Source: Rheinheimera aquimaris (GTDB lineage: Bacteria; Pseudomonadota; Gammaproteobacteria; Enterobacterales; Alteromonadaceae). From it: a stretch of 64,000 nt of DNA. This document shows, one piece after another, positions 19,553-62,727 of the stretch (the first letter of the stretch is position 1; each line of letters starts with the position of its first letter). The position numbers and the translations under genes are program-made. The DNA is taken from assembly GCF_020531985.1 (NCBI RefSeq), contig NZ_JAJAVQ010000007.1, positions 62,001-126,000 on the forward strand, read 5' to 3'. The notes beneath the pieces were generated by a model, which saw nothing but the letters and a program-made list of their open reading frames with translations, searched no databases and was not told the origin of the DNA.

Positions 19553-20875
19553 ATGAAGCTGCTGTTAATTGTTGCCCTGCTGATATGCCTGCCTGCTTAT
19601 GGCCAACTGGTTCCCGCACAAGATAATGTGCCAGAAGATACGCCGATAAAAGTCGAAGGCACCACAGGCGACAAAGCCATAACTGCCAGGCTGCTGGCCA
19701 TCACGTCTGCTATTTCCGGTATGGAACAAATCACTGCAAGCACTGAGGCGGGAGTATTAACGCTGCGTGGTGAAGTTGCCAATGCCCAACTTAAAGACGA
19801 AGCGCTCGCTATCGCCCGCCGGTTAGACGGCGTGGTGTATGTGCAGGACATGCTGCAGGAACAACTGGCAGTGCGCTCCAGATTAGCACCTGCGGCAGAG
19901 AAGTTTGAGCAGATGCTGACCAAGGCCGTGCAAATGCTACCGCTTTTGGTGTTGGCACTGCTGGCAGTACTGTGTTTTTCCTGGCTTGGCGGCTGGTTGG
20001 CGCGTCATAGTACCTGGCTGCGGCGGTTCGGCCTTACCGAGCTGGCCTCAAATCTTGGTGTGCGTTTTATCCGGGTACTGGTTACGGGTATAGGTGTATT
20101 GATTGCTCTGGAGCTATTGGATGCAACTGCTTTGGTTAGCGCGGCACTGGGCGTTGCTGGTGTGATCGGTATTGCACTGGGGTTTGCGTTTCGTAATATT
20201 GTCGAAAACTACCTGGCTGGCGTGCTGCTCAGCACGCGCAACCCTTTTGCCATTGGCGATCAAATTCAGGTGGGTGAGTTCACCGGCAGCGTTGTACGCT
20301 TAACCTCGCGTGATACAGTGTTGATGACGTACGACGGCAATCACCTGCGCATTCCTAACAGCGATATTATTACGCTGGCAATGACCAACTTTTCCCGTAA
20401 TCCGTTGCGGCGGTTTCAGTTTGATGTCGGGGTATCAGTTACATTGGACTTAGTACAGGTACGTCAACTGGGTATTGCCACGCTGACCAACATGCCCGGT
20501 ATTCTGGCCGACCCTCCACCACGTTGCCTGATTAACGAGTTAGGCGACAGTGCGGTAGCGTTGAAGTTTTTTGGCTGGATAGATCAGCGCAATACCGATT
20601 TTTTAAAAGCCCGCAGCGAAGCCATCCGCCTGGTTAAATCGGCATTTGACGACGCCGGTATTGAAATGCCAGAACCTATCTACCGTATTCATATGGCAGA
20701 TATGAACAATGCCGAACCACCTGCGCCCACTGAGGCTACAACGTCTTCTCAGCAGGCGGCACGGCAAGACGTGGACGTCACCACCGACGACACTATGCAA
20801 CAGCAATTGCAGACTGAGCTGCGAACCTCAGATGAGGAGAATTTACTAACCAAGCACAGCAATAGTAAGAGCTAA
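19553..20875 (+). CDS. BON-domain MscS-family mechanosensitive channel
   Basis: A 440-aa inner-membrane channel. A signal peptide (about 1-18) leads to a periplasmic BON-like domain (about 35-105, with GVLTLRGEVAN and ARRLDGVVYVQD). Three hydrophobic segments follow (about 122-145, 165-185 and 190-215). The last is the pore helix, reading into the MscS beta domain with GFAFRNIVENYLAGVLL, PFAIGDQIQVGEFTGSV and RIPNSDI. The C-terminal tail is acidic and Gln-rich. BON-MscS proteins probably open on hypo-osmotic shock; the BON domain may bind lipid or envelope surfaces. GGAGA precedes the start. Confidence 0.9.
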   Translation: MKLLLIVALLICLPAYGQLVPAQDNVPEDTPIKVEGTTGDKAITARLLAITSAISGMEQITASTEAGVLTLRGEVANAQLKDEALAIARRLDGVVYVQDMLQEQLAVRSRLAPAAEKFEQMLTKAVQMLPLLVLALLAVLCFSWLGGWLARHSTWLRRFGLTELASNLGVRFIRVLVTGIGVLIALELLDATALVSAALGVAGVIGIALGFAFRNIVENYLAGVLLSTRNPFAIGDQIQVGEFTGSVVRLTSRDTVLMTYDGNHLRIPNSDIITLAMTNFSRNPLRRFQFDVGVSVTLDLVQVRQLGIATLTNMPGILADPPPRCLINELGDSAVALKFFGWIDQRNTDFLKARSEAIRLVKSAFDDAGIEMPEPIYRIHMADMNNAEPPAPTEATTSSQQAARQDVDVTTDDTMQQQLQTELRTSDEENLLTKHSNSKS

Positions 20876-21789
20876 ATATCGGGATCTGCTGTTTTGATTA
20901 GCGGCTGTGTTTTTCCCTCAAGCAGCTGCTGCACGGCTCTGGCCGGTTTATGCCGTGCCGCCAGCGCCAGGCCGGTGAGCATAATCAGTACCACGCCGGC
21001 CAGCTGCAATAACGTTAGCGCTTCGTGAAATAACCACCAACCGGCAATAATTACCGTTACCGGCTCCATATAGGCCAACGTAGCATATACCCGTGTTGGC
21101 AGATGCTGCAGTGCCACTATGGCGCAGTAAATAGCCATAAAGCCGGGGAAGAGCCCCGCCAGCGCTACCCAGATAAGCGTCTGCTGGTCCGGCACCGGTA
21201 TGGCTCCCAGAACAGGCAGCATGCAGCAGGCACCGATCACCAACTGATAAAAGGTGCGCTGCAATTGTGAGTGTGCCGGCAACGAGCGCCTGTTCAGCAG
21301 TAAAAAGCCGCTGTAAGCCAGTAAGGACATCAGGCCAAACACTAAACCCGGAAATTGGTCGGCATGTAGCACCAGATCGAATTTAAATTGCTGTAGCATC
21401 GCAAAGCCGAAAAATGACAACGCAATCAGGCTGCTGTCAGGTAAGTCCAGCCGTTCATCCAACAGCCAGTGTGCAACAAAGGCAGACAATGGCGGCGCCA
21501 GATAAACCAGCATGATGGCATTCGCCAGGCTGATATATTCAATGGCGCTCAAGAACGTCAGCATAAAGCCAACCAGCAGCACACCGTTTACCGCCATACG
21601 CCAATCGGGTTTACCTTTCAACGTTTTGATACGGCCGGTACAGGCAACAAACACCAGCAGACATAAAGCGCCGACCGCCAGCCGATAGAAGGTCAGCTCG
21701 GCAGCCGACAACCCGCTAAAGCGGGCAATAATGCCACTGCTGGCCATCGCCACTGCCGATACCAGCGCCAGTAATACATAAGTGAGCAT
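20872..21789 (-). CDS. EamA/DMT-family exporter
   Basis: A 305-aa integral membrane protein with two repeated EamA halves of about five helices each, the fold of drug/metabolite transporters such as RhaT and YdcZ relatives. The first half opens with SGIIARFSGLSAAELTFYRLAVGAL, and the second ends with YATLAYMEPVTVIIAGWWLFHEALTLLQ, both characteristic. The C-terminal tail is polar. It is convergent with the mechanosensitive channel, with a 4-bp stop overlap. The substrate is unknown. Confidence 0.85.
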   Translation of the reverse strand: MLTYVLLALVSAVAMASSGIIARFSGLSAAELTFYRLAVGALCLLVFVACTGRIKTLKGKPDWRMAVNGVLLVGFMLTFLSAIEYISLANAIMLVYLAPPLSAFVAHWLLDERLDLPDSSLIALSFFGFAMLQQFKFDLVLHADQFPGLVFGLMSLLAYSGFLLLNRRSLPAHSQLQRTFYQLVIGACCMLPVLGAIPVPDQQTLIWVALAGLFPGFMAIYCAIVALQHLPTRVYATLAYMEPVTVIIAGWWLFHEALTLLQLAGVVLIMLTGLALAARHKPARAVQQLLEGKTQPLIKTADPDI

Positions 21790-21814: not shown

Positions 21815-21911
21815 GGATTGGGGTACTCACACCGACACGCCGTAAATACATCCCTGTAGGCTCGATTCCGGCATCCATGCCGTCAACGGTCGGCTTAGAG
21901 TAACCCAATCC
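21815..21911 (-). repeat. Structured palindromic repeat, copy 1
   Basis: A 97-bp element between ppc and the EamA gene, read in the direction of ppc. The outer arms (21815-21828 and 21898-21911) are complementary over 14 bp with one mismatch. Inside are a second stem (GCCGAC/GTCGGT), a hairpin CGGCA-TGGA-TGCCG and a hairpin TACA-GGGA-TGTA. The core from CCGTTGA to GGCGTGT matches copy 2 at 62141-62198 in 45 of 55 aligned positions (hand alignment, one gap), while the arms differ in sequence. Confidence 0.75.
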
Positions 21912-21967: not shown

Positions 21968-24598
21968 CTAACCGGAATTTCGCATACCGGCGGCAATACC
22001 GGCAATGGTCACCATCAGTGCCCGGCTAATCATCGGGTTGACCCGCTCCGGCTGATGCCGCACGCGGTGCAGCAACTCGGCTTGCAGAATATGCAAGGGG
22101 TCAACATAAGTGTTACGCAGCATAATGGATTCACGGATCCAGCTCTCTTTTGCCATTAATGTGTCGCTGTGAATAAGCTCTAACAGCAAGTCACGGTCAG
22201 CAGCCAGCTGGTTGCGCAGGCTCTCGCCCAGATGTTTCAGCTCGTCCGGCACCAGCACCTTATCGTAATAGGCGGCAATATCGCTGTCTGCTTTGAGAAA
22301 CACCATTTCCAGCATCGACATGCGGGTTGCGAAGAACGGCCATTGTTGCTGCATTTCTTCGAGCAGCTTAGCGTTATCGGCTTTCGCAGCTTTAGCCAGT
22401 GCTGAACCGGCGCCAAGCCAGGCTGGCAGCATTAAGCGGTTTTGCGACCAGGCGAAGATCCATGGAATAGCGCGCAGGCTTTCTACCCCCCCACTGGGGT
22501 TGCGTTTCGCTGGCCGGCTGCCTAATGGTAACTGCCCCAGTTCCTGTTCCGGTGTAGCAGCGCGGAAGTAAGGCACGAAGTCTTTATTGTGCCGGACAAT
22601 CGCCCGGTAAGCCTCGCAGGAGTCGTCTGCCAGCTGCTGCATCAGGTTACGCCAGCTTTGTTTTGGCACCGGTGGCGGCAGCAACATGCCCTCAAGTACT
22701 GCGCTGGCGTACAGTGCCAGGCTGCGCTCAGCTAGTTTCGGTAAACCAAACTTAAAGCGGATCATCTCGCCTTGCTCAGTTACGCGCAGGCCGCCGGCCA
22801 GTGAGCCTGGTGGCTGGGATAAGATAGCCGCATGAGCCGGGCCACCGCCACGGCCAATAGTGCCGCCGCGGCCATGAAACAGTGTCAGTTGTACTTTAGC
22901 CTGCTGACAAATCGCCACCAACGCTTCCTGCGCACTGTATTGCGCCCAGGCAGCAGCGAACACACCAGCATCTTTGGCCGAGTCAGAGTAACCAATCATC
23001 ACCTCCTGTTTGCCATTAATATAGCCGCGATACCAGTCAATGCTAAGCAGCCGGCGCATGCAGTCAGGTGCGTTTTGTAAATCACTCAAGGTTTCAAACA
23101 GCGGCGCAACCGGCATCGGGAAGCTGATGCCCGCTTCTTTTAACAGCAGCTGTACCGCCAGCACATCAGACGGTTTACCCGCCATAGAGATCACATAGGT
23201 ACTCAGCGCTTCGTTACCATGGCGGGCAACGATGTCACAGGTATCCAGAACCTCCTGTACATCGGCTGATGGTTGCCAGCTTTTGGGAAATAACGGCCGG
23301 CGGTTTGCCAACTCGGCTAGCAGAAATGCCTGACGGGCGCTTTCATCCCAAGCACCATAGTCTCCAAGGCCAAGATGCTGTGTCAGCTCGCTGAATACCT
23401 GCGCATGCCGGCCGGCATCCTGACGAATATCCAGTTTTAGTAGAGTTAAACCAAAAGCATAGGCCCGGCGTAACGTATCAAGCAGCTTACCATTGGCAAT
23501 AACCGCCATACCACAATCGAGCAGCGACTGATAGCACAGCAGCAAAGGTTCCAGTAACTGGGCGTTATGCCAAATCAGGTCCTGTGGCCGCTGCAACCGG
23601 TCATGCTTTAATGCTTCAGTCAGCCAGTCGCGGGTGCGCAACAAGCCGCTGCGCAACGTGTTCAGTACCTGCCGGTACGGCTCACTGCTGTCGCCTGCAA
23701 TGTCACGTAATGCCAGGCTGGCCTGAAACATTGATAATTCGCTGCTGAGTAAATCCAAATCCTGCGAAAACAGATCAGCCGCTTTCCAGCGACTCAGCAA
23801 CAATACCTGGCGGGTCACTTTCGATGTAACAAAAGGGTTACCATCGCGATCTCCCCCCATCCAGGACGCAAACTTCACCGGTGCAGCATCCAGCGCCAGG
23901 CCTTTACCAGTCGCATTTAGCAGTTTGGCGTCCAGTTCACGCAGGAAGTCTGGCACCGCCTGCCACAACGAGCTTTCAATTACTGCAAAACCTGACTTCG
24001 CCTCATCTACCGGCGTCGGCCGCTGCTCACGAATTTCATTCGTGTACCAGGCCTGGGCAATCAGTTCACTTAAGCGCAGCTCAACTGCCTCTTGTCGGGC
24101 GGGGCTAAGTTCATATTCCAGTTCAGTTAAGCAGGCTGCGATTTCGGTCAGTTTATGGATCAAAGTACGGCGGGACACTTCTGTCGGGTGTGCCGTCAGC
24201 ACCAACTCAATGGATAAACTTGCCACGGCCTGATCCACTTTGGCATTGTCGAGTTTTTTGTCTTCAAGCAAACTGAACAGCTCTTGTAGCGGCTCGGGCT
24301 TTTCAATGCTGGCATGGCCAATACGGCTGATAGTGTGGTGCTGCTCGGCCAGGTTAGCCAAATTAAGAAACTGGGCAAAAGCCCGCGCTACCGGTAACAG
24401 TTCATCGTCACTAAGACTATGCAGTACCTGCTTTAGTTTGTCAGCCTGCAACTCTTCACCCTGACGTGCTGCTTTGGACAACAGCCGGATTTGCTCTACC
24501 CGCTCCAGCACTGCATCCCCTAACTGACTGCGGATAGTGTCGCCCAACTTAGTACCCAATAAGCCAACATTCGACTTTAATGCTGCGTAATGATCCAT
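21968..24598 (-). CDS. ppc: Phosphoenolpyruvate carboxylase
   Basis: Carboxylates PEP to oxaloacetate with bicarbonate, refilling the TCA cycle; a cytosolic tetramer. At 876 aa it is close to the E. coli enzyme. Visible motifs are [14 protein letters not shown] with the catalytic His, [39 protein letters not shown] with the essential Arg, and the C-terminal MRNSG, where the usual ending is QNTG. The frame is open to 24631, but ATG at 24596-24598 has GAGG eight bases upstream and fits the family start, so I use it. Confidence 0.95.
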
Positions 24599-24728
24599 TT
24601 CCGTTGCCTCGTTTACTGGATTTTGCACCACCCTAGCGCGTTATCTGTTAGTACTCAACATTGATTGATTACAAAACGGGCAACGAAATTGGTAAAACCA
24701 AATTACCAGAAAAAATTTCATCTTGCCG

Positions 24729-60534: not shown

Positions 60535-61184
60535 CAGATAGCCTGATCAAGGAAAAAGACCTGCTCGCCGCTCACGTGGTGTATGACTACCTGCAGGATC
60601 ACCCGGAGTTTTTTCAGCAGTACCCGCAGCTGCTGGCCAGCCTGCGCTTACCGCATCAGCAGCGCGGCAGCGTGTCACTGGTTGAGCGTCAGCTGGAAAT
60701 GCAACGCGAAAAAATTGTCGCGCTCGAAGATGACATCACCCGGCTGATGTCGGTTGCCAGACAAAATGAACAACTGTTTCTGGCGTTTAACCAGTTACAG
60801 GCGCAGCTGTATCAGGCCGAAAACCTGCAACAGGCCGAGCACAGCCTGCAGCAATTTACTGCCGCTATGCCGCAGGTTCAGCAATGCAGGTTGCTTTGCT
60901 TTAACGAACACCACAGTGCCAGCGAGTTTCAGCTGTTGTTGTCACGACGGCTAAACGAGCAAGGCATTTACCTTGGCCGGCTGAACAAAGAAGAGCAACA
61001 AGGCTTGTTCCCACCACAAATACATTCAGTCGCGCTGATCCTGATCAGTAACGAGGAGCAACCGCTGGCACTGCTGGCATTTGGCAGCGAGCAGGACGAC
61101 CACTTCCAGCCATCAATGGACAAGTTATTTATCAGCCATCTGGCGACTATTCTGGCGCAGTTGTTACCGGGTTATGCAGCCTGA
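60531..61184 (+). CDS. DUF484 protein
   Basis: A 217-aa protein with N-terminal helices ([46 protein letters not shown]) and a GAF-like second half. This is the DUF484 pattern, found between dapF and xerC in many gammaproteobacteria. The function is not known; the position suggests a link with XerC or chromosome processing. Its start overlaps dapF by 4 bp and its end overlaps xerC by 11 bp. Confidence 0.9.
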
Positions 61185-62109
61185 CATCACGCTATCTCTG
61201 CAATGGCAACAGCCATTGCAGGCATTTCTCAGCTACCTGCAGTTTGAACGTGGTTACAGCCCGAAAACACTGGACAGCTACCAGCGGCAGTTACAACAAC
61301 TGGCACTGAGCATTGACGATAGCGACACACACTGGCTGAACCTCAGCGAAACGCAGTTAAAACAGTATATTATCGGTTTGCGCCGCAGCGGGTCTAAGCC
61401 ACGCACTATTGCATTGAAAGTCGCGGCACTGCGCAGTTTCTACCGTTACTTACAGGCACAGGGCCTGCGCAGTGATAACCCGGCGCAGTATCTGGCTGTT
61501 CCCAAGGCTGGTCGCAGCCTGCCGAAAAACCTCAATGTCGATCAGCTTAATCATCTGCTGAGCTTTGACAGCCAGGACGATATTCTGGCCTGCCGCGATA
61601 AGGCTATACTGGAACTGTTTTACTCCTCCGGCCTGCGTCTGGAAGAGCTGGTGAATGCCAATATCAGCGATATCGACTGGCAGCAGCAACTGCTGCGGGT
61701 AACGGGTAAAGGCAGCAAGCAACGTATAGTGCCGGTGGGGAAAATTGCACTGGCAGCTGTTCAAGCCTGGCTGGCAAAACGGCCGGCCTTTACCGCTAAT
61801 CTGAGTGAAGCTGATCAACAGGCGCTGTTTCTCAGCAAGCAACACAAGCGTATCAGTACCCGCCATGTGCGCGAGCGGGTGCAGCTGTGGGCCAAACAGC
61901 AAGGCCTGAACCAGCACGTACACCCGCATATGCTGCGCCACTCATTCGCCAGCCATATGCTCGAATCCAGCCAGGATTTACGTGCTGTGCAAGAGCTGTT
62001 AGGCCACGCCAACCTGAGCACCACTCAGGTTTACACCCATCTGGATTTTGCCCATTTAGCCAAGGTTTATGATAACGCCCACCCAAGGGCGAAGAAGAAA
62101 TCAGGTTAG
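61174..62109 (+). CDS. xerC: Tyrosine recombinase XerC
   Basis: A 311-aa site-specific recombinase resolving chromosome dimers at dif with XerD. The N-terminal SAM-like domain is followed by the catalytic domain with Arg in SSGLRLEELV, Lys in TGKGSKQR, HxxR in HMLRHSFASHML, His/Trp region LGHANLSTTQVYTH and the Tyr nucleophile in the last of these. The frame is open from 61081, but ATG 61174 fits the family start. The lysA-dapF-DUF484 context fixes it as XerC rather than an integron integrase. Confidence 0.95.
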   Translation: MQPDITLSLQWQQPLQAFLSYLQFERGYSPKTLDSYQRQLQQLALSIDDSDTHWLNLSETQLKQYIIGLRRSGSKPRTIALKVAALRSFYRYLQAQGLRSDNPAQYLAVPKAGRSLPKNLNVDQLNHLLSFDSQDDILACRDKAILELFYSSGLRLEELVNANISDIDWQQQLLRVTGKGSKQRIVPVGKIALAAVQAWLAKRPAFTANLSEADQQALFLSKQHKRISTRHVRERVQLWAKQQGLNQHVHPHMLRHSFASHMLESSQDLRAVQELLGHANLSTTQVYTHLDFAHLAKVYDNAHPRAKKKSG

Positions 62110-62120
62110 TCGCATATACA

Positions 62121-62218
62121 GAACAGCTATAACCTAAAGCAACCGTTGAAGCCCTGGATGGGCGGAAACGAGCCCCCAGGGATGGGTTCACGGCGTGTTG
62201 CTGTGGTTATAGCTGTTC
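62121..62218 (+). repeat. Structured palindromic repeat, copy 2
   Basis: A 98-bp element 11 bp after xerC. Perfect 14-bp outer arms: GAACAGCTATAACC (62121-62134) and GGTTATAGCTGTTC (62205-62218). Inside are AGCAAC/GTTGCT (62138-62143, 62197-62202), a hairpin GCCC-TGGAT-GGGC and a hairpin CCCA-GGGA-TGGG. The core is shared with copy 1 (21815-21911), while the arms differ. No T-tract follows, so it is not a plain terminator. Confidence 0.8.
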
Positions 62219-62280
62219 GGGCTATCTCTTGCTAAAACCCAAACACCCGGCAAGCCGTGCGTTTTCTTCACTCATTCACT

Positions 62281-62727
62281 TTAGTTAAAACGCTTTGCCA
62301 GCAAGCTGTCTATTGACGCTTTACCTGCACCGCTAAACAGCAGTGACACACTGGCAGCCAGCAGAGCCAAGCCAAACTCACAGCCGTTATTAGCCATAAA
62401 CAAACCGTTTTGGATATGCACTGAGAAAATAGCCACTACCATTGCAATTGCCAGGCTCAGCGCCGCCGGGCGGGTTAACAGGCCAAGGATCAGCGCGATA
62501 CCGCCAAAAAACTCAGCCGCACCGGCTAAAAACGCCATCATGATACCTGGTGACAAACCAATGCTGTCCATCCAGCCGCCGGTGCCTTCCAGGCCGTAAC
62601 CGCCAAACCAGCCAAACAATTTTTGTGCACCGTGTGCAGCAAAGATAATGCCCACTGGTACCCGCAGAGCCAATGCTGCAACACCAGCATTAGAAGTTAA
62701 AATTTTCTGTACGATTGAAGCTGTCAT
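62281..62727 (-). CDS. DoxX-family membrane protein
   Basis: A 148-aa four-helix membrane protein of the DoxX/YphA type. ALRVPVGIIFAAHGAQKLFGWFGG, AFLAGAAEFFGGIALILGLLTRPAAL and the late SLLFSGAGKASID are typical. The role is not fixed; relatives take part in redox or thiol stress responses. The start ATG at 62725-62727 has AGGT with a 7-nt spacer. It diverges from a LysR gene with a shared 161-bp region containing a 15-bp palindrome. Confidence 0.85.
   Translation of the reverse strand: MTASIVQKILTSNAGVAALALRVPVGIIFAAHGAQKLFGWFGGYGLEGTGGWMDSIGLSPGIMMAFLAGAAEFFGGIALILGLLTRPAALSLAIAMVVAIFSVHIQNGLFMANNGCEFGLALLAASVSLLFSGAGKASIDSLLAKRFN

Follow-up and report, generated by a model that had tools for sequence, protein, structure and literature searches.

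A dispersed YPAL/RU-2-type repeat of Rheinheimera aquimaris and other Gammaproteobacteria with paired GGA hairpins predicted to bind CsrA

ERIC, REP/BIME and MITE-like repeats are small, palindromic, intergenic and noncoding, and the YPAL repeats were reportedly described in 2006. As set out in the accessible portions of one account, YPAL is an element of about 168 bp, described for Yersinia and Erwinia, which moves with target duplications varying from 3 to 26 bp, has targets that span or adjoin dyad symmetry, and is read along with the genes upstream of it, a property there termed 'co-translated' (PMC2229807); the YPAL/RU-2 sequence itself is given in Table 1b of a second paper, likewise accessible in part (PMC2759123). 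For CsrA, a partly accessible source gives ruACArGGAugu as the SELEX consensus, the GGA lying in the loop of a hairpin, gives AuGGAug as the E. coli CLIP motif, and reports that CsrA CLIP peaks in E. coli 3' UTRs showed no association with post-transcriptional regulation (PMC5694010). The available part of a further source presents CsrB/CsrC and RsmX/Y/Z as small numbers of dedicated sRNA genes, each bearing many sites (PMC11882849).

The element considered here was encountered in the window, i.e. the whole 64,000-nucleotide stretch of R. aquimaris DNA analysed, where the initial annotation had placed two copies, both of which were found at the positions it gave (Table 1). As that annotation had also claimed, the core from CCGTTGA to GGCGTGT proved to be shared, being identical at 45 of the 56 aligned columns, with a single gap. 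Scanning the window with covariance model R1, built from 33 copies of the same genome, returned both copies plus one chance-level match (E 0.21). Our preferred reading, to which we assign a probability of about 0.7, is that this is a YPAL/RU-2-type repeat, dispersed and non-autonomous, the RNA of which is a predicted CsrA-binding platform.

Table 1. Positions of the two window copies, their parts and neighbouring ORFs, with the loci bearing paired elements. Gene names (xerC-, DoxX-, ppc-/PEP-carboxylase- and EamA-like) were assigned by reading the ORF proteins.
Feature	Position	Strand	Remarks
Element copy 1	62121-62218	+	Short (two-hairpin) form; R1 119.6 bits, copy included in model R1
Copy 1, placement	First base 12 nt past stop codon of xerC-like gene	Sense strand	
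Copy 1, left outer arm GAACAGCTATAACC	62121-62134	+	Pairs with 62205-62218, 14/14 complementary
Copy 1, right outer arm GGTTATAGCTGTTC	62205-62218	+	
Copy 1, conserved UAA of internal loop	62135-62137	+	Opposite GU 62203-62204; columns invariant or nearly so (alignment A1)
Copy 1, P1b stem AGCAAC	62138-62143	+	Pairs with GTTGCT 62197-62202
Copy 1, hairpin P2 GCCC(UGGAU)GGGC	62151-62163	+	GGA 62156-62158, predicted CsrA site 1
Copy 1, conserved GAGCC, hairpin P3 CCC(AGGGAU)GGG, UUCAC, GGC	62170-62194	+	
Copy 1, P3 loop GGA	62180-62182	+	Predicted CsrA site 2
xerC-like tyrosine recombinase ORF	61081-62109	+	Upstream neighbour of copy 1 only, outside element
DoxX-like ORF	Beyond copy 1		Convergent
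Element copy 2	21815-21911	-	R1 106 bits, copy included in model R1
ppc-like ORF	21968-24631	-	Neighbour of copy 2; strand common to both ORFs and copy
EamA-like ORF	20872-21789	-	Neighbour of copy 2; strand as above
Loci with head-to-head pairs			L072, L076, L077, L078, L080, L082, L086, L090, L094, L095, L102, L110, L122, L130

That the two copies represent more than a chance pair was clear from the R. aquimaris genome itself, in which blast with either copy as the query gave 30 matches and model R1 gave 45 at E ≤ 0.1, 44 of them strong (E < 1e-7). The search of related genomes that had been proposed, conducted with a covariance model, yielded matches in all 31 genomes of the genus searched, at 11-65 copies each (E ≤ 0.001). 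A second model, R2, built from 110 matches in the R. aquimaris genome and the named loci, detected one or more matches in at least 74 of 369 genomes (67 of 272 genera) in a sample of the class, and in 29 of 398 genomes in a sample of the phylum, all 29 being from the same class as R. aquimaris; copy numbers per genome in both samples are lower bounds, no more than about 10 candidates having been scored in each. At least 119 stretches of named genome contigs matched an exact core pattern, and the 80 analysed as named loci (81 elements) span gammaproteobacteria including Stenotrophomonas, Luteimonas, Methylotuvimicrobium, Marinobacter, Halopseudomonas, Cellvibrio, Pantoea and Rheinheimera, one metagenome locus (L125) being titled Proteobacteria only. 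Complete genomes of E. coli gave no match to the copy of locus L055, copy 1 matched plasmids only twice, briefly and in part, and IMG/VR viral contigs contained no exact core match, so that at that stringency there was no sign of phage carriage.

Clustering of elements was also recorded. One genome carried six in a tandem array with a period near 227 bp (G574:C1:94420-95657), and in other genera elements often stood in close head-to-head pairs (5' ends facing) with differing arms. All 14 model pairs within 500 bp (E ≤ 1e-4) were head-to-head, several of these loci coming from related genomes, and a stricter pattern gave 11 close pairs that were head-to-head, two tandem and none tail-to-tail. 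By reading, the spacers of Stenotrophomonas pairs (L122, L106, L110) hold another palindrome, and those of Halopseudomonas/Pseudomonas pairs (L130, L076, L081, L086) a short similar hairpin.

In the consensus structure, the sense RNA would form a long closing stem, consisting of a variable outer arm, a UAA/GU internal loop and a 6-bp stem (P1b), within which two side-by-side hairpins, P2 and P3, would each present N-GGA in the loop, the two lying at a distance of 24 nt in copy 1; two further GGA hairpins are added in a longer form. The arms were complementary within each window copy, as had been claimed, over all 14 positions in copy 1 and 13 of 14 in copy 2; the respective RNA folding z-scores were -6.78 and -4.05. 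Across the 33 aligned copies from the R. aquimaris genome, 94% of cells were standard pairs and 25 of 30 pairs had changed on both sides, the outer arm pairs covarying and P1b showing 99% paired cells with double changes in five of its six pairs. Double-changed cells numbered 170, as against a mean of 38.6 in shuffled alignments (none of 500 shuffles was as high), and paired cells fell to 31-42% when the registers were slid. RNAalifold, unaided, recovered 28 pairs, 21 of them doubly changed, in a layout agreeing with the consensus. Two features of the fold were less clear-cut: the CGU:GCG helix competes with a GCC:GGC helix, neither being decisively favoured by pair counts, and the minimum-energy fold of copy 1 paired P2 with P3 instead of forming two separate hairpins, a low-energy alternative that differs from the family consensus.

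The description of the arms as unrelated between copies held for the window pair, which agree at 6 of 14 positions, but not for the family, since arms near GAATCGGTTTGCCC recur in many of the 33 aligned copies, and the copies that diverge from such arms do so with compensation. Similarly, the ends do vary around a fixed core, as had been thought unusual, but the simpler answer is that they form a stem which drifts with compensation, and the fixed part of the element is a set of GGA loops plus a few junction bases. The supposed GGGA tetraloop is better described as A-N-GGA-Y.

The residual mismatches in the arms were informative as to strand and level. Because G-T on one DNA strand is A-C on the other, the two should be equally frequent in a DNA hairpin; in 66 de-duplicated arms scored symmetrically, mismatches comprised 54 G-U, 16 A-C and 47 others (p = 6e-6), after exclusion of elements whose flanks were short or whose arms were weak (67 of 81 kept from the named loci, and 28 kept from 40 distant regions). 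The de-duplicated subsets gave 40 versus 12 for the named loci and 17 versus 4 for the R. aquimaris and genus copies combined (p = 0.007), the effect being weak in the small subsets of R. aquimaris copies (11 versus 3; p = 0.06) and distant copies (5 versus 1; p = 0.22). This excess points to selection on a folded sense-strand RNA and, together with the covariation, supports the structured RNA of the initial annotation. Transcription-linked C-to-T mutation could add to the G-U excess, a process that would itself require transcription in the sense direction.

Conservation of the hairpin loops was assessed with regard to how the loci had been found: the A2/R2 loci were recovered by means of an exact P3 pattern, so P3 is conserved there by construction, and as P2 lies outside that pattern, only P2, the arms and the R. 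aquimaris copies count as tests. Of the 81 elements in the named loci, 71 had a P2 hairpin with a stem of 4 bp or more; its loop contained GGA in 67 of the 71, the exceptions being CTCGAGC, TCCA, CCAAG and AGGCT. The GGA usually lay within CANGGAUG, the surrounding positions being C in 62, A in 58, U in 51 and G in 61 of the 67. P2 stems, by way of contrast, were variable: after removal of 14 that were too short and 21 duplicates, the 32 distinct hairpins showed pairwise identities of 0.26-0.46 over seven outer stem positions. In the R. aquimaris copies, GGA was present in the P2 region in 33/33 (31 in register) and in P3 in 33/33 (32 in register), with A preceding the N of P3 in all 33. A GGA count of 104/110 obtained elsewhere is generous, as it includes long-insert and partial matches. 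The two hairpins added in the long form both carried GGA in 13 of 14 sequences, the fourteenth (L280) being of different build with one added GGA hairpin, and a P2 stem of at least 5 bp was present in only 4 of the 14 long forms. At the xerC site, by reading, long and short forms interchange between relatives with similar flanks (L208/L209; L210-L212/L214).

As judged by sequence, therefore, the element would present the paired A(N)GGA hairpin loops typical of a CsrA-binding RNA, and both P2 and P3 fit the SELEX consensus and the CLIP motif. Over residues 1-54, the CsrA of R. aquimaris differs at a single position from the solved CsrA chains 1y00 and 2bti, which we take to be those of E. coli and Yersinia. 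Among the 74 element-bearing genomes, 69 yielded a CsrA, as did 60 of the 61 of good quality; the five in which the search gave no match include G226 (98% complete). To our knowledge CsrA is nearly universal in Gammaproteobacteria, so this co-occurrence says little. Most of the 74 genomes had one or two CsrA-family matches, and two (G328 and G372) had eight and seven. A CsrB-like RNA was detected in the R. aquimaris genome (G000:C9:560251-560586) with a score of 50 bits against RF00018, short of that family's cut-off (71); the RF00018 model gave weak below-cut-off matches in four control genomes too. Conservation of GAGCC and UUUACGGCGU exceeds what CsrA requires, which makes another binder or a mobility signal likely as well.

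Comparison with described families placed the repeat, on sequence grounds, as a member or close cousin of the YPAL kind. Alignment of its core with the published YPAL/RU-2 segment gave 66/75 identities for a Pantoea copy, 40/47 for window copy 2 and 34/45 for copy 1, with scores of 103, 57 and 31 as against shuffle maxima of 24, 26 and 23, and each of six copies tried outscored all of 200 shuffles. The predicted fold of that segment has a matching closing stem, the same two GGA hairpins and the three-way layout; YPAL/RU-2 is, according to the accessible parts of the relevant papers, likewise intergenic, dispersed and mobile (PMC2229807, PMC2759123, PMC2847712), and the present element too is found present or absent at one intergenic site among relatives (xerC, ppc). 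The differences from YPAL as it is there described are a core of 98-111 bp, other arms, an extra long form and occurrence in many genera; some R. aquimaris copies share flanks beyond the arms, which may bear on the outer segments of the ~168-bp YPAL unit. ERIC, REP/BIME and MITE-like repeats are comparable in being small, palindromic and intergenic without coding capacity (PMC3733652, in the part available), and differ in that here conserved loops are carried on variable stems in a genome without a Y1 transposase. Rfam gave no gathering-level match for L001-L004 and, for six further loci, five matches at E up to 10, none to a Csr/Rsm family. The Yersinia sRNA Ysr224 (RF02770) aligned weakly with the L026 core (19.3 bits, cut-off 70, E 1.9), but models the opposite strand and lacks the GGA loops. 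The likeness to CsrB/CsrC and RsmX/Y/Z lies in the repeated A(N)GGA hairpins, which by analogy would sequester CsrA; the difference is that here few hairpins are present per copy in dozens of scattered copies.

The genomic context of the copies bears on two further readings. Among 77 copies from R. aquimaris and its genus, with ORFs called by two scripts of like design, 28 lay tandem in sense, 15 tandem in antisense, 27 between convergent and 2 between divergent genes, with 5 unclassified; the R. aquimaris counts cover 37 elements pattern-matched in 41 regions rather than all 44 strong copies, and the 40 genus regions were the top-scoring matches. The scarcity of divergent sites was strong (p = 1.6e-6) and the lean towards sense weak (p = 0.07). 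Forty copies in six distant genomes were distributed as 11 sense, 13 antisense, 9 convergent, 4 divergent and 3 unclassified, and the 81 elements of the named loci as 10, 14, 16 and 10, with 31 overlapping ORFs or neighbourless; many of these last contigs are GC-rich, so the crude gene calls, from which the genus pattern is absent, were not built upon. Only within the genus is a 3'-end location thus clear, and copies do not consistently lie in sense.

The 27 convergent as against 2 divergent gaps would suit a generic 3'-end RNA stabiliser or attenuator in which the long stem alone matters and GGA is inherited without selection, and REP-like repeats do protect 3' ends. P2 stems have nonetheless been largely replaced while GGA persists in 67 of 71 loops, mostly inside CANGGAUG, and inheritance alone would not spare loops whose stems had turned over; we regard this as the least probable of the readings weighed. 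Terminator-like hairpins near few copies (11/77 downstream, 5/77 upstream) led to rejection of a terminator role. The same scarcity counts against each copy being an independent CsrB-like sRNA gene equipped with a promoter and terminator, as does a consensus scan of 61950-62500, around copy 1, that gave no promoter- or terminator-like match, a weak result given that shuffles produce only 0.4 and 0.9. Such genes would account for the GGA hairpins, and the head-to-head pairs of other genera could be divergent sRNA genes, yet we consider this very improbable.

Comparison of empty and filled sites in relatives, as had been suggested, found both kinds at the xerC and ppc sites and, with the high copy number, upheld the annotation's alternative of a mobile element. 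At the xerC site, the 16 of 30 loci that could be read to the next gene comprised 7 sense copies, 2 antisense copies, 2 empty sites, in which the xerC stop is followed directly by a terminator-like hairpin, and 5 with other sequence; eight of the remaining 14 had no copy in the first 300 bases. All 30 ppc loci were classified, giving 6 sense copies, 3 antisense copies, 2 deletion derivatives and 19 without a copy, several of which have another downstream gene. By reading, the deletion derivatives (L388, L389) keep paired arms and have lost P2 and P3. Pairing was also retained among orthologs: the xerC-site copy of L219 departs from that of R. aquimaris in an A-U to C-G double change and in G-U pairs within its arm, and several arm variants at the ppc site still pair (both by reading). 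Neither site displayed a clean target duplication on reading, and both adjoin a terminator-like hairpin.

Where the core is antisense at an orthologous site, the GGA motifs would be absent from the mRNA of the upstream gene. Out of 15 arm positions, the three antisense ppc copies have 11-13 in common with four sense orthologs and 8-9 with another sense ortholog (L382), as against at most 10 with 32 other R. aquimaris loci, and inversion of the core in place would be the simpler, though not a proven, reading. Such site-specific arms around copies in both orientations are also what would be expected if arm covariation arose from template-switch repair of quasi-palindromes or inter-arm inversion rather than from selection on pairing, and some of the G-U excess could be imitated by C-to-T change linked to transcription. 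That account leaves the excess over A-C itself unexplained, sits poorly with the 8-9 positions shared by L382, and does not address why the short P2, Ha and Hb stems turn over while their loops are kept in one polarity; we judge it improbable.

The final reading to be weighed is a mobile palindrome acting at the DNA level only, its hairpins, GGA included, being single-stranded DNA signals read by a REP/RAYT or IS200-like transposase. Scattered copies, filled and empty sites and both orientations at one site would all be expected of it, as would the placing of YPAL among mobile repeats in the accessible part of its description (PMC2229807); it could also accommodate GAGCC and UUUACGGCGU, which CsrA leaves unexplained. 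The Y1 (IS200/REP-type) transposase family, the only one covered, was found in 27 of the 31 genus genomes. It gave no match in R. aquimaris, despite 44 strong copies, and three further Y1-less genomes (G012, G024 and G026) carry 19, 49 and 27 copies, so that a REP-type transposase was rejected as a necessary driver in R. aquimaris. A DNA hairpin would moreover not be expected to show 54 G-U against 16 A-C, nor the added hairpins of the long form to repeat GGA on unrelated stems. We consider this reading unlikely, albeit somewhat less so than the template-switch account, and the single-strand DNA recombination element proposed initially is unsupported, since the genome with those 44 copies gave no Y1 match and the mismatch pattern looks RNA-level.

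On the preferred reading, namely a dispersed repeat with an RNA that binds CsrA, a CsrA dimer would bind a transcribed copy, most simply within the 3' end of the mRNA of its host gene. Each copy would thereby tether CsrA to that mRNA, with a possible mRNA-protecting effect, and would enlarge the pool of CsrA-sequestering sites beside CsrB. Counting against this reading are the weak or absent lean towards sense, the antisense cores at orthologous sites, the pairing of P2 with P3 in the minimum-energy fold of copy 1, the small number of long forms with a P2 stem of at least 5 bp, and the reported behaviour of 3' UTR CLIP peaks in E. coli. A bolder joint proposal is that mobile modular RNAs have spread pairs of high-affinity CsrA sites to gene 3' ends throughout the class, as a sponge at least equal to CsrB in site number, and that the core flips between its inverted arms, switching the CsrA site of a locus on or off in the upstream mRNA; taken as a whole this is tentative and more probably wrong than right. 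What appears from the sequences to be new is the interpretation of this family as one of paired CsrA sites, together with its wide range, modular build and apparent inversion in place. Literature on CsrA with repeats, MITEs, transposable elements or sponges yielded no link to such repeats, the CsrA-YPAL pairing not having been queried directly, and the openly accessible YPAL literature yielded no mention of CsrA.

Within Gammaproteobacteria the Csr system has a central regulatory role, and only a small number of sRNA genes are generally counted as its antagonists. Should CsrA also be bound by dozens of repeats in each genome, regulon predictions, CLIP backgrounds and CsrA titration would need rethinking in many genera and, if the reading is true, YPAL-type repeats would gain a specific molecular function.
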